41,775 nucleotides of DNA from the NCBI RefSeq assembly GCF_030694575.1, contig NZ_JAUYUS010000006.1, forward strand, positions 1 through 41,775. The letters run 5' to 3'. The translations under genes and the position numbers were made by a program. The stretch comes from Parvibaculum sp. (GTDB lineage Bacteria > Pseudomonadota > Alphaproteobacteria > Parvibaculales > Parvibaculaceae). The notes under the pieces were generated by a model. The model made no database searches. It was not told the origin of the DNA and saw nothing but the letters and a program-made list of their open reading frames with translations. The first letter of the stretch is position 1, and every line of letters starts with the position of its first letter. This document shows positions 22,307 to 35,028 of this stretch, one piece after another.

Positions 22307-22358
22307 ACCCTCCTCTGGGGGGAGGGTCAAAATTCGCTTGCGAATTTTGGGGCGGGGG
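22307..22358 (+). repeat. REP-like palindromic element (single unit)
   Basis: The unit starts ACCCTCC and ends GGGGCGGGGG, enclosing a perfect 8-bp hairpin (AAAATTCG at 22329-22336, loop CTTG, CGAATTTT at 22341-22348). Same arm architecture as the units at 23797, 30821, 31373 and 34953, but a different stem. It is intergenic, between divergent genes. Confidence 0.75.
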
Positions 22359-23796: not shown

Positions 23797-23872
23797 ACCC
23801 TCCCCGTGAGGGAGGAGCCTGCCCCCGGGCTTGACCCGGGGGTCGAAAAATCCAAAGGATTTTCGGGGAGGG
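23797..23872 (+). repeat. REP-like palindromic element (long form)
   Basis: It begins ACCCTCCCC and ends GGGGAGGG. It contains three hairpins: CCCTCCC/GGGAGG, CCCCCGGG/CCCGGGGG, and GAAAAATCC/GGATTTTC. It matches the long form at 34953-35028 in layout but not in stem sequence. It lies in the 143-bp gap between the TetR and esterase genes. Confidence 0.75.
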
Positions 23873-29332: not shown

Positions 29333-29464
29333 CTCGTCCTCCCGTGTTTTGTTGCGGAAAGACTAGCGTGGCAGCCGCCGCCCGTCTCGCCTTTCGGGTT
29401 GACGTCGCGGAATGCGATGGGGAAGGGAGGTGGATTGAGCCGCAGCAAGAAATAAAAACAAAAA

Positions 29465-29492
29465 TGTCATCCCGGCTTTCGCCGGAATGACA
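29465..29492 (+). repeat. Family-2 repeat, symmetric form (copy 4)
   Basis: TGTCATCCCGGCTTTCGCCG followed by GAATGACA is a near-perfect palindrome, with an A-rich prefix (AAATAAAAACAAAAA). It lies in the 224-bp gap upstream of the SDR gene. Confidence 0.8.
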
Positions 29493-29556
29493 CTTTATCT
29501 CTTTGGCTAACGCATGAAGTTACTCTTCGCCCGCAACGCTCCCGCCGTCGAACGCG

Positions 29557-30785: not shown

Positions 30786-30820
30786 ACCCTCCCCCTTCCT
30801 GCCACCCTCCCCCTTCTGCC
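30786..30820 (+). repeat. Tandem partial copies of the REP-like left arm
   Basis: Two ~17-bp units (CCCTCCCCCTTCCTGCCA, then CCCTCCCCCTTCTGCCA) lead into the full unit at 30821, so the left arm is repeated about three times. This looks like slippage or repeated partial insertion. Confidence 0.6.
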
Positions 30821-30973
30821 ACCCTCCCCCTGTGGGAGGGTCAAACGGCTGCAAGCCGTTTGGGGAGGGGTAGGGGAAGGTGCCAGGAAATTCAGGACTG
30901 CATGTTTGTCCGCTGCTGCAACCCCTCCCCGAAATTCGCTGCGCAAATTTCGACCCTCCCACAGGGGGAGGGT
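30821..30973 (+). repeat. REPIN-like inverted pair, copy A (upstream of DUF559)
   Basis: A left unit (30821-30871) has arms ACCCTCCCC and GGGGAGGGGT around the stem CAAACGGCT-GCA-AGCCGTTTG. A ~50-bp spacer follows. An inverted right unit (30922-30973) has the stem GAAATTCGC-TGC-GCAAATTTC. The whole block is ~95% identical (about 7 mismatches in 153) to copy B at 31373-31525, in the same orientation. It ends 18 bp before the DUF559 start. Confidence 0.85.
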
Positions 30974-30991
30974 GGAAGTTACACTGACGTC

Positions 30992-31354
30992 ATGGTTGAT
31001 CCGGCGCTCAGGAATCTGCGGAAAAACATGACAGAGGCCGAACGCCGCCTCTGGAGCCGGTTGCGCAAGGAGGCGCTTGGATACGAGTTCCGGCGCCAGC
31101 ATCGGTTGGGCAGCTGGATCGTCGATTTCGTCTGCCTCGAAAGACGCTTGGTCGTGGAAGTCGACGGCGGTCAACACAACATGTCGGCCGGCGTTGCCCG
31201 CGATACCCGCAGAACCGAATGGCTGGAAGCCGATGGCTTCGAGGTTCTCCGTTTCTGGAACAACGACGTCCTCGCGAAAACCGACAAGGTGGTCGAAACC
31301 ATCTGGCACGCGCTGAGAAAACCTCGCCCCGGCCTGCCCCCCATCCGCGCCTGA
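30992..31354 (+). CDS. DUF559 endonuclease-domain protein
   Basis: A 120-residue protein of the DUF559/Vsr-like PD-(D/E)XK nuclease fold: MTEAERRLWSRLRKE helix, YEFRRQHRLGSWIVDF with D45, and VVEVDGGQH with E56, D58 and H62, then FEVLRFWNNDV. These are the expected metal-binding catalytic residues. The target DNA and role of DUF559 proteins are unclear. It is bracketed by two 153-bp direct repeats, each 18 bp from a gene end. No strong Shine-Dalgarno is seen before the ATG. It may be a mobile or repeat-associated nuclease rather than part of the neighbouring repair operon. Confidence 0.88.
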   Translation: MVDPALRNLRKNMTEAERRLWSRLRKEALGYEFRRQHRLGSWIVDFVCLERRLVVEVDGGQHNMSAGVARDTRRTEWLEADGFEVLRFWNNDVLAKTDKVVETIWHALRKPRPGLPPIRA

Positions 31355-31372
31355 AGTCGATCCTTCTCTATC

Positions 31373-31525
31373 ACCCTCCCCCTGTGGGAGGGTCAAACGG
31401 CTGCAAGCCGTTTGGGGAGGGGTAGGGGAATCTGCCAGGAAATTCAGGACTGCATGTTTGTCCGCTGCTGCATCCCCTCCCTGAAATTCGCTGCGCAAAT
31501 TTCGACCCTCCCCCAAGGGGAGTGT
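31373..31525 (+). repeat. REPIN-like inverted pair, copy B (downstream of DUF559)
   Basis: Same structure and orientation as copy A. The right unit is slightly eroded (CCCCCAAGGGGAGTGT). It starts 18 bp after the DUF559 stop and ends 20 bp before the helicase ATG, so it lies in the helicase promoter/leader. Confidence 0.85.
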
Positions 31526-31545
31526 GGCCTGATACGCTCTCCCCC

Positions 31546-34952: not shown

Positions 34953-35028
34953 ACCCTCCCCCTGAGGGAGGGCCTGCCCCGGACCCGATCCGGGGTCAAA
35001 ATTTGCACAGCAAATTTTGGGGAGGGGT
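34953..35028 (+). repeat. REP-like palindromic element (long form)
   Basis: ACCCTCCCCCTGAGGGAGGG, then CCCCGGACCCGATCCGGGG, then the stem AAAATTTGC-ACA-GCAAATTTT, closing GGGGAGGGGT. It lies between convergent pdeM and ccdA-type genes in a 248-bp gap with nothing else recognisable. Confidence 0.75.

Follow-up and report, generated by a model that had tools for sequence, protein, structure and literature searches.

A RAYT gene is described as bracketed by two REP repeats (Nunvar 2010, PMC2817692; Di Nocera 2013, PMC3733652), and the REPs of the CGTC class of the second paper stand outside the RAYT world, with no known enzyme. Another group of repeats consists of the intrastrand-triplex motifs of Holder et al. 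(2015), for example CCCTCTCCC..GGGAGAGGG with a G-rich third strand, which are present in many copies in more than 260 genomes. TM_ECO has 23 sites in E. coli MG1655, the motif loops are 1–6 nt long, and the authors state that genetic-mobility activities were never found around triplex motifs or TM_ECO sites (PMC4666352).

The locus described here lies in a 41,775-nucleotide stretch of DNA that was analysed as a whole and is called the window. Like the REP/RAYT arrangements (REPtrons, REPINs), it combines dispersed intergenic palindromes, often inverted doublets, with a small nuclease gene that has a repeat on each side. Unlike RAYT, the enzyme is a DUF559 protein of the Vsr-like PD-(D/E)XK type and not an HUH/Y1 transposase. 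The DUF559/repeat pair is not a member of the RAYT family because the HUH/Y1 enzyme is lacking. Judged by sequence, the repeats appear similar to BoxC/PIT/TM_ECO in having a pyrimidine arm, a loop, a purine arm, a second loop, and a G-rich third strand. A CC[CT]TC[CT]CC-type core, as in BoxC, recurs at DUF559 loci. Unlike the short loops of Holder et al., the second loop in the window's clade is a hairpin of variable sequence with a median length of 23 nt.

Its position between repeat copies, here and in many other bacteria, makes DUF559 a strong candidate for mobilising or maintaining these repeats. We conclude that DUF559 is probably the dedicated nuclease of widespread triplex-type palindromic repeats of the BoxC/PIT class, working like the RAYT/REP pair. 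A broader proposal is put forward tentatively. DUF559 proteins, including E. coli YcjD, and BoxC/PIT-type palindromes may constitute a second class of selfish element, present in at least eight bacterial phyla, that mobilises repeats without RAYT. The nuclease would recognise the folded form of its lineage's repeat and, by cutting and copying, drive the spread of repeat and gene. If the partnership is true, the same pairing with palindromic repeats evolved in two unrelated nuclease folds. Our search of the open-access literature found no link of DUF559 or ycjD to these repeats; subscription papers and preprints lay outside this search, and absence from print is not claimed.

The window locus and its enzyme

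The open reading frame of the DUF559 gene begins with ATG at 30992 and ends with TGA at 31352–31354, and an 18-bp gap separates it from the repeat block on either side (Table 1). The earlier note had placed two same-orientation 153-bp blocks, about 95% identical, 18 bp from the gene. Its coordinates are right, and the blocks are identical at 146/153 positions (95.4%). The repeat search returned the pair as 161 nt at 94% identity (30815–30975 and 31367–31527). The same note had read each block as an inverted pair of REP-like units, which is borne out by arm complementarity and by the DNA fold. The 30-nt arms of the left block are 93% complementary, and the left unit (30819–30875) folds into two hairpins at -18.4 kcal/mol (z -4.16), with 0/200 shuffles as good. 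A unit runs from the hairpin ACCCTCCC..GGGAGGGT through a second hairpin to a G-rich run, GGGGAGGGGT or GGGGAGGGG, and each block holds two such units in inverted orientation. Hairpin 1 of the inverted right-hand unit of the left REPIN occupies 30953–30973 and ends 18 bp before the start codon. The palindrome CCTGCCCC..GGGG interrupts the single units at 23797–23872 and 34953–35027, between the GGGAGG(G) arm and the TC at the start of the second hairpin.

Table 1. Repeat units and the DUF559 gene in the window
Feature	Position	Strand	Basis or remark
Single REP unit	22307..22358	+	Relative G013 has a similar unit at the corresponding syntenic position
Single REP unit, interrupted by another palindrome	23797..23872	+	Uninterrupted unit at the syntenic place in G013
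Tandem repeats of partial hairpin arms, ACCCTCCCCCTTCCTGCCACCCTCCCCCTTCTGCC, to the left of the left REPIN	30786..30820	+	Repeat search
Left REPIN, two inverted REP units	30821..30973	+	Repeat search; also dispersed genome-wide
Hairpin 1 of the left REPIN, ACCCTCCC..GGGAGGGT	30821..30841	+	DNA fold
Second hairpin CAAACGGCTGCAAGCCGTTTG into the G-rich run GGGGAGGGGT, putative third strand of a triplex-type motif	30842..30871	+	Repeat search, fold
Right-hand REP unit of the left REPIN, inverted	30921..30973	-	Repeat search, fold
DUF559 gene, 120 aa, Vsr/homing-endonuclease-like PD-(D/E)XK fold	30992..31354	+	Profile match, fold match
Right REPIN	31373..31525	+	Repeat search; outermost hairpin 31505–31525 decayed
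Single REP unit with an interruption at nearly the same point as in the 23797–23872 unit	34953..35027	+	G013: remnant only

The 705-bp stretch from 30821 to 31525 has 99 matching pieces, itself included, in the 3.8-Mb draft genome, and the core hairpin ACCCTCCCN{3,6}GGGAGGGT is present in 117 copies compared to 0 for the reversed pattern. The abundance of the repeat in this genome is far beyond chance. A profile search found two DUF559 genes in the genome, both bracketed by the same repeat; the second (contig C78) is followed by a full REPIN and immediately preceded by a single hairpin. The profile search gave no match to the Y1 transposase PF01797 in the window's genome, which rules out a RAYT in disguise. 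PF01797, the RAYT-type transposase, was not found in 39/40 genomes of the window's family, the window's genome among these. Seventy-three distinct units, taken from fetched loci of the window's genus and a few others, contain the arm, the middle segment, and a GGGG(A/C)GGG(G) run in that order. The middle segment, the 23-nt (median) stretch between the purine arm and the third strand, folds into a separate stem of 6 bp or more in 60/73 units. These stems comprise 23 different 8-mers, and 27% form a stem when halves of different units are joined as a control.

The window is syntenic with G013 over 41 kb at 83–93% identity. The gap between the mechanosensitive-channel-like and helicase-like genes (named from their translations) was read by eye in each relative. 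It contains no repeat in G026 and G028, a remnant in G018 and G034, one REPIN in G015, other repeats in G013, G017, and G037, and REPIN-DUF559-REPIN in the window. Near 29418–29555, G013 has a full REPIN and the window has none. The empty, REPIN-only, and other-repeat states among relatives show that repeats come and go between close relatives. The earlier note had suggested looking for a precise single-repeat empty site. The relatives carry no repeat, one REPIN, or unrelated repeats, and no clean single-repeat empty site, precise excision junction, or target duplication was found at the window site in the syntenic relatives compared. At 29418–29555 the window carries an unrelated palindrome, GTCATCCCGGCTTTCGCCGGAATGACA, and other dispersed palindromes fill such sites in relatives.

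The same gap bears on the idea that a mobile nuclease gene lands or persists chiefly in repeats because these are safe intergenic sites, the repeats being independent of the nuclease. The site beside the helicase gene is repeat-prone in relatives without DUF559 there, with the REPIN of G015 and the other repeats of G013 as examples, and insertion sequences are known to target REPs (PMC1525189). Such passive landing is strained by the co-occurrence of gene and repeat in two phyla, by the within-family contrasts, and by the tracking of nuclease lineage by stem type (all described below), and we consider it highly improbable.

To our knowledge, Pfam assigns DUF559 no function. The 120-aa product matches PF04480 with E=2.5e-37 (127.5 bits against a cut-off of 20.6), and PF04480 and PF18741 are its only matches. 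Its AlphaFold model has a mean pLDDT of 82.7. Foldseek matched the model to N. gonorrhoeae ngo0050 (3hrl, 1e-7) and the homing endonuclease I-Bth0305I (3r3p, 2e-5), and more weakly to PvuRts1I (4oq2, 3e-3) and Vsr (1vsr, 4e-3). A profile search of structures gave 3hrl at E=2e-39 and 3r3p at E=9e-5. On the basis of the model, I-Bth0305I and Vsr appear to have the catalytic fold in common with the window DUF559, but the window protein (120 aa) is a short catalytic-type domain only. A defence-system library returned weak matches only, to a homing endonuclease (22.8 bits), DpdF (20.1), and Hhe (13.3). Residues E17, D45, E56, D58, Q61, and H62 are invariant in 27 aligned sequences. G005a, in which D45, D58, H62, and W89 are changed, has no Y/R hairpin within 170 bp. 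YcjD has been counted among the known PD-(D/E)XK members (PMC1189080).

These relatives support two other interpretations in part. The presence of I-Bth0305I among the nearest solved structures favors the main rival, in which DUF559 is a free-standing homing endonuclease that cuts gene-less repeats. The gene and its flanking repeats would then be copied in by recombination between repeats, and the repeats would be the target, spread by something else or by break repair only. We judge this unlikely, and return to it with the geometry and density of the repeats. The distant relationship to Vsr suggests a host repair nuclease, either for Vsr-like mismatch repair or for hairpin or triplex resolution, that is needed in repeat-rich genomes, with the nearby repeats acting as regulatory or terminator elements. 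Caulobacter VsrA (CCNA_02930) is a DUF559 protein, like the window product, that is tied to cytosine methylation and the SOS response; a DNA-damage response depends on VsrA in cells without the methyltransferase ScmA, and the authors interpret VsrA as acting in mismatch repair of methylated sites (PMC12907096). The word start 'palindrom' is absent from the main text of that paper. Against a housekeeping role, the Vsr model NCBIfam TIGR00632 gives 28.3 bits, far below its cut-off of 97.85, and a housekeeping gene need be neither bracketed by its own substrate on both sides nor present in 0–10 patchy copies per genome. We regard this role as improbable. A partnership of DUF559 with the repeats would allow the VsrA-dependent DNA damage to be interpreted differently.

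Repeats beside DUF559 genes in other bacteria

Repeats flanking DUF559 were scored by local alignment, in either orientation, of the 250 bp to the left of the domain with the 250 bp to its right, and a score of at least 16 was counted. Neighboring ORFs and random intervals from the same loci were the controls. In the window's family, 26/41 DUF559 domains reached this score compared to 5/383 ORFs and 1/675 random intervals; the 41 include three DUF559 domains inside ~1600-aa proteins (G005b, G019c, and G003) that were omitted from later counts. In the class set, 75/107 scorable DUF559 genes among the matches listed reached it compared to 1/134 ORFs and 18/772 random intervals. This set is without the partial matches G109:C501 and G260:C170 and matches weaker than ~E=1.5e-25, and 2/109 genes were too near a contig end. 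In named genomes (the best 80 of more than 500 matches), the counts were 49/79 for DUF559, 1/100 for ORFs, and 7/602 for random intervals; one of the 80 loci was unscorable and the score of L273 comes from a run of N, so the strict count is 48/78, and both loci were kept among the 227 loci described below. The comparison of DUF559 with other genes that the earlier note had called for thus shows enrichment for flanking repeats in all three sets. Its suggestion that a nuclease takes the place of RAYT beside the repeats is supported as a RAYT-like association because DUF559 flanks are strongly enriched for repeats compared to control ORFs. Its further ideas, that DUF559 cuts or mobilises the palindromes or that gene and repeats moved or duplicated together as a cassette, are kept here as hypotheses. 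Among the named genomes, convincing bracketed cases are found in Pseudomonadota, Myxococcota, Thermodesulfobacteriota, Omnitrophota, Planctomycetota, Melainabacteria, Nitrospirota, and Chloroflexota; several of these are metagenome bins, and single phylum assignments may therefore be wrong.

Pattern searches gave the same picture. A fixed core pattern, which misses the window's own repeat type, was found within 150 bp on both sides of 62/145 DUF559 genes compared to 0/555 ORFs and 0/1582 random intervals, and on at least one side of 112/145 compared to 5/555 and 9/1582, respectively (2/147 genes had flanks shorter than 100 bp). A looser hairpin pattern was found within 250 bp on both sides at 123/227 DUF559 loci and 2/591 control ORFs, and on at least one side at 207/227 and 21/591. 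The remaining 20/227 DUF559 loci had no hairpin on either side within 250 bp by the looser pattern. One of the 227 loci is a likely duplicate, since L241 and G035b are probably one locus. Of the 546 hairpins in the 1.57 Mb of sequence analysed, 455 fall in the 11.8% that lies within 250 bp of DUF559. These loci were picked for holding DUF559, and the rates therefore describe the neighborhood and not genomes.

The repeats bracket the gene at 101/147 loci and are inverted at 67/101. Among 255 oriented cases, the G-rich run points toward the gene in 198 and away in 57, and it faces the gene on both sides at 59/227 loci. The gene therefore often looks as if it were inserted in a REPIN, an arrangement that favors homing. 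The window's clade has the minority orientation, with the G-rich run pointing away from the gene, and one geometry does not fit all loci because the run faces the gene overall.

DUF559 recurs at a few sites in the family, named here from translations. These are a carA-carB-like gap (L045, L049, L043, L044, and L059), the interval between imuB-like and dnaE2-like genes (L046 and L047), and the region upstream of an asd-like gene (L057, L062, L064, and L068). L059 (G005:C1, ~1101576–1101887) is a degenerate DUF559 in the apparent carA-carB gap; several of its conserved residues are altered, no hairpins were seen there, and its flanks are a direct duplication of a stretch of the upstream gene's 3' end, with a flank score of 54. 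In a Legionella evolution experiment, segments with a transposase and a DUF559 gene are reported as mutation and recombination hotspots (PMC12308824).

Nuclease lineage, repeat type, and repeat density

The hairpin stems vary between loci around a common pyrimidine-rich arm, mostly of the CC[CT]TC[CT]CC kind. In a tree of 38 DUF559 proteins from the window's family, the 36 rows with an assignable stem carry five stem types that require four changes, the minimum. With the 19 genomes as labels, the same tree requires 32 changes where the minimum would be 18. Stem types were assigned by hand, a few rows were typed from one side, G005a and G039 were omitted for want of an assignable stem, and G031 was counted as without clade I. 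In the window's family, stem type follows nuclease lineage, not host genome. G013 has two lineages in one genome, with ACCCTCCC and CCCTCTCC types. In genomes with several bracketed DUF559 genes, a nuclease with a relative of at least 65% identity in another genome that is closer than any same-genome paralogue has repeats that resemble the relative's in 18 cases and the paralogue's in 1, with 1 tie. Without the identity threshold, the same test gave 22 versus 14 with 2 ties (p=0.24, not significant), and between distant paralogues the correspondence of repeat sequence and nuclease is lost. The idea that the repeats are genome-specific and merely lie near DUF559 is weakened, since stem type tracks nuclease lineage. 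Lineage-specific pairing inside single genomes is also unexpected of a housekeeping nuclease, and homing alone does not predict that one stem type is kept per lineage.

Copy number was compared with nuclease content in the genus. Clade-I hairpins have a median of 44 in the 11 genomes with a clade-I nuclease compared to 1 in the 16 without (p=6e-4). Four genomes (G020, G025, G028, and G034) contain 15–48 clade-I hairpins without a detected DUF559, in assemblies that are 83–93% complete. The CCCTCTCC stem type has a weak link to its own nuclease, with medians of 12 and 4 in 9 and 18 genomes (p=0.04), and G032 has 42 hairpins of this type and no DUF559.

The link extends to the class. In 289 class genomes, a generic hairpin pattern has a median of 5.81/Mb with DUF559 (E<=1e-20, n=67) compared to 0.44/Mb without (n=196), about a 13-fold difference for DUF559 of this type (p=4e-25, AUC 0.92). 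The 26 genomes with weaker matches only, treated as a separate group, have a median of 0.50/Mb. The medians are 6.06 and 0.73 in class genomes of at least 2.5 Mb (56 versus 82, p=1e-17). An excess over the control of at least 5 hairpins/Mb is found in 35/67 genomes with DUF559, 3/26 with weak matches, and 2/196 with none, and an excess of at least 3/Mb in 8/196 without DUF559. Fewer than 1.5 hairpins/Mb are found in 10/67 genomes with this DUF559 type. Kinship was handled by within-family contrast only; in 21 of the 25 families holding both kinds of genome, those with DUF559 have the higher density (sign test p=9e-4). G315, with 63 hairpins and a reversed control of 44, was kept in the class and within-family counts. 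In 14 named genomes with a DUF559 locus (from the best 80), the hairpins number from 4 to 250, with Herbaspirillum (4), Legionella anisa (6), and Thiocapsa (11) at the low end.

A prediction drawn from the class result was tested in a second phylum, that of a Melainabacteria genome (244 genomes). The medians are 7.36/Mb with DUF559 (112 genomes), 0.56 with weak matches (53), and 0.50 without (79) (p=1e-18, AUC 0.87). An excess of at least 5/Mb is found in 64/112, 5/53, and 3/79 genomes, respectively, and 9/10 top DUF559 loci have hairpins on both sides. Homing into pre-existing repeats alone does not predict a repeat density that depends on whether the nuclease is present. Five genomes (G256, G279, G357, G509, and G510) have at least 5 hairpins/Mb over control and no detected DUF559, which may reflect a lost nuclease, an assembly gap, or another enzyme.

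The association could also be a product of chance or of composition in GC-rich genomes. Short C/G-rich words are common in such genomes, the random intervals of the class set did reach the flank score at times, and the reversed-pattern control in the class is also somewhat higher with DUF559 (0.70/Mb) than without (0.39/Mb, p=0.006). However, this difference is far smaller than that of the pattern itself, the same-locus controls are low, and the second phylum shows the link as well, with a median of 0 for the reversed-pattern control in all three groups. The probability of this explanation is close to nil, and we take it as ruled out by the low control rates in ORFs and random intervals and by the reversed-pattern controls.

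What was observed is the linkage of gene and repeat, their pairing by lineage in one family, their co-occurrence in two phyla, and the lack of a Y1 transposase hit in the window's genome. From these data we propose a model in which DUF559 acts as the nuclease of its own repeats. The repeats around a DUF559 gene would be the autonomous element, and scattered repeats and REPINs would be its non-autonomous derivatives. A repeat made single-stranded during replication or repair could form the Y-R hairpin, with the G-rich tail able to serve as a third strand. We infer that the enzyme of the matching lineage would recognise this folded structure and nick at or beside the hairpin. Repair of the break from another repeat-bearing locus would then copy repeats to new places, in some cases together with the gene that they flank.

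E. coli ycjD and BoxC

Tying DUF559 to the repeats gives both an assignable job that is testable in E. coli K-12 with YcjD and BoxC. K-12 ycjD is a DUF559 gene (PF04480 E=1e-49) and provides an independent case: TM_ECO/BoxC no. 9, one of only 23 sites, is found 167 bp past the 3' end of the gene. The number of sites expected within 250 bp of a gene this length is ~0.003 (18 sites, 4.64 Mb). The hairpin 5' of ycjD is not BoxC, and a similar hairpin follows sapF in SMS-3-5. No BoxC was found by the pattern used in the fetched 16 kb of SMS-3-5, which is without the ycjD region. The E. coli control genome of the profile searches had no PF04480 match and possibly belongs to a strain that lacks this gene.

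Of 5426 E. coli genomes, 3362 carry the ycjD region over at least 80% of the query. In a 60-row spread sample, near-identical BoxC pieces beyond the ycjD place have a mean of 3.3 in 37 genomes with ycjD and 1.6 in 22 without, a comparison that is confounded by phylogroup; row H90, which matched a BoxC piece only, was left out. Strain 2021CK-01784 carries a full BoxC that overlaps ycjD at its 3' end and has the third strand on the side of the gene; K-12 is without ~12 nt there. The 41-nt full form is present in 186/5426 E. coli genomes, and all 20 rows among the matches listed are at ycjD. A 12-nt ycjD difference has been noted for ST69/ST182 (PMC12817139), and the missing ~12-nt BoxC piece appears to be this difference. 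The ycjD length difference among lineages (loci L321 and L323) seems to be the missing BoxC piece.
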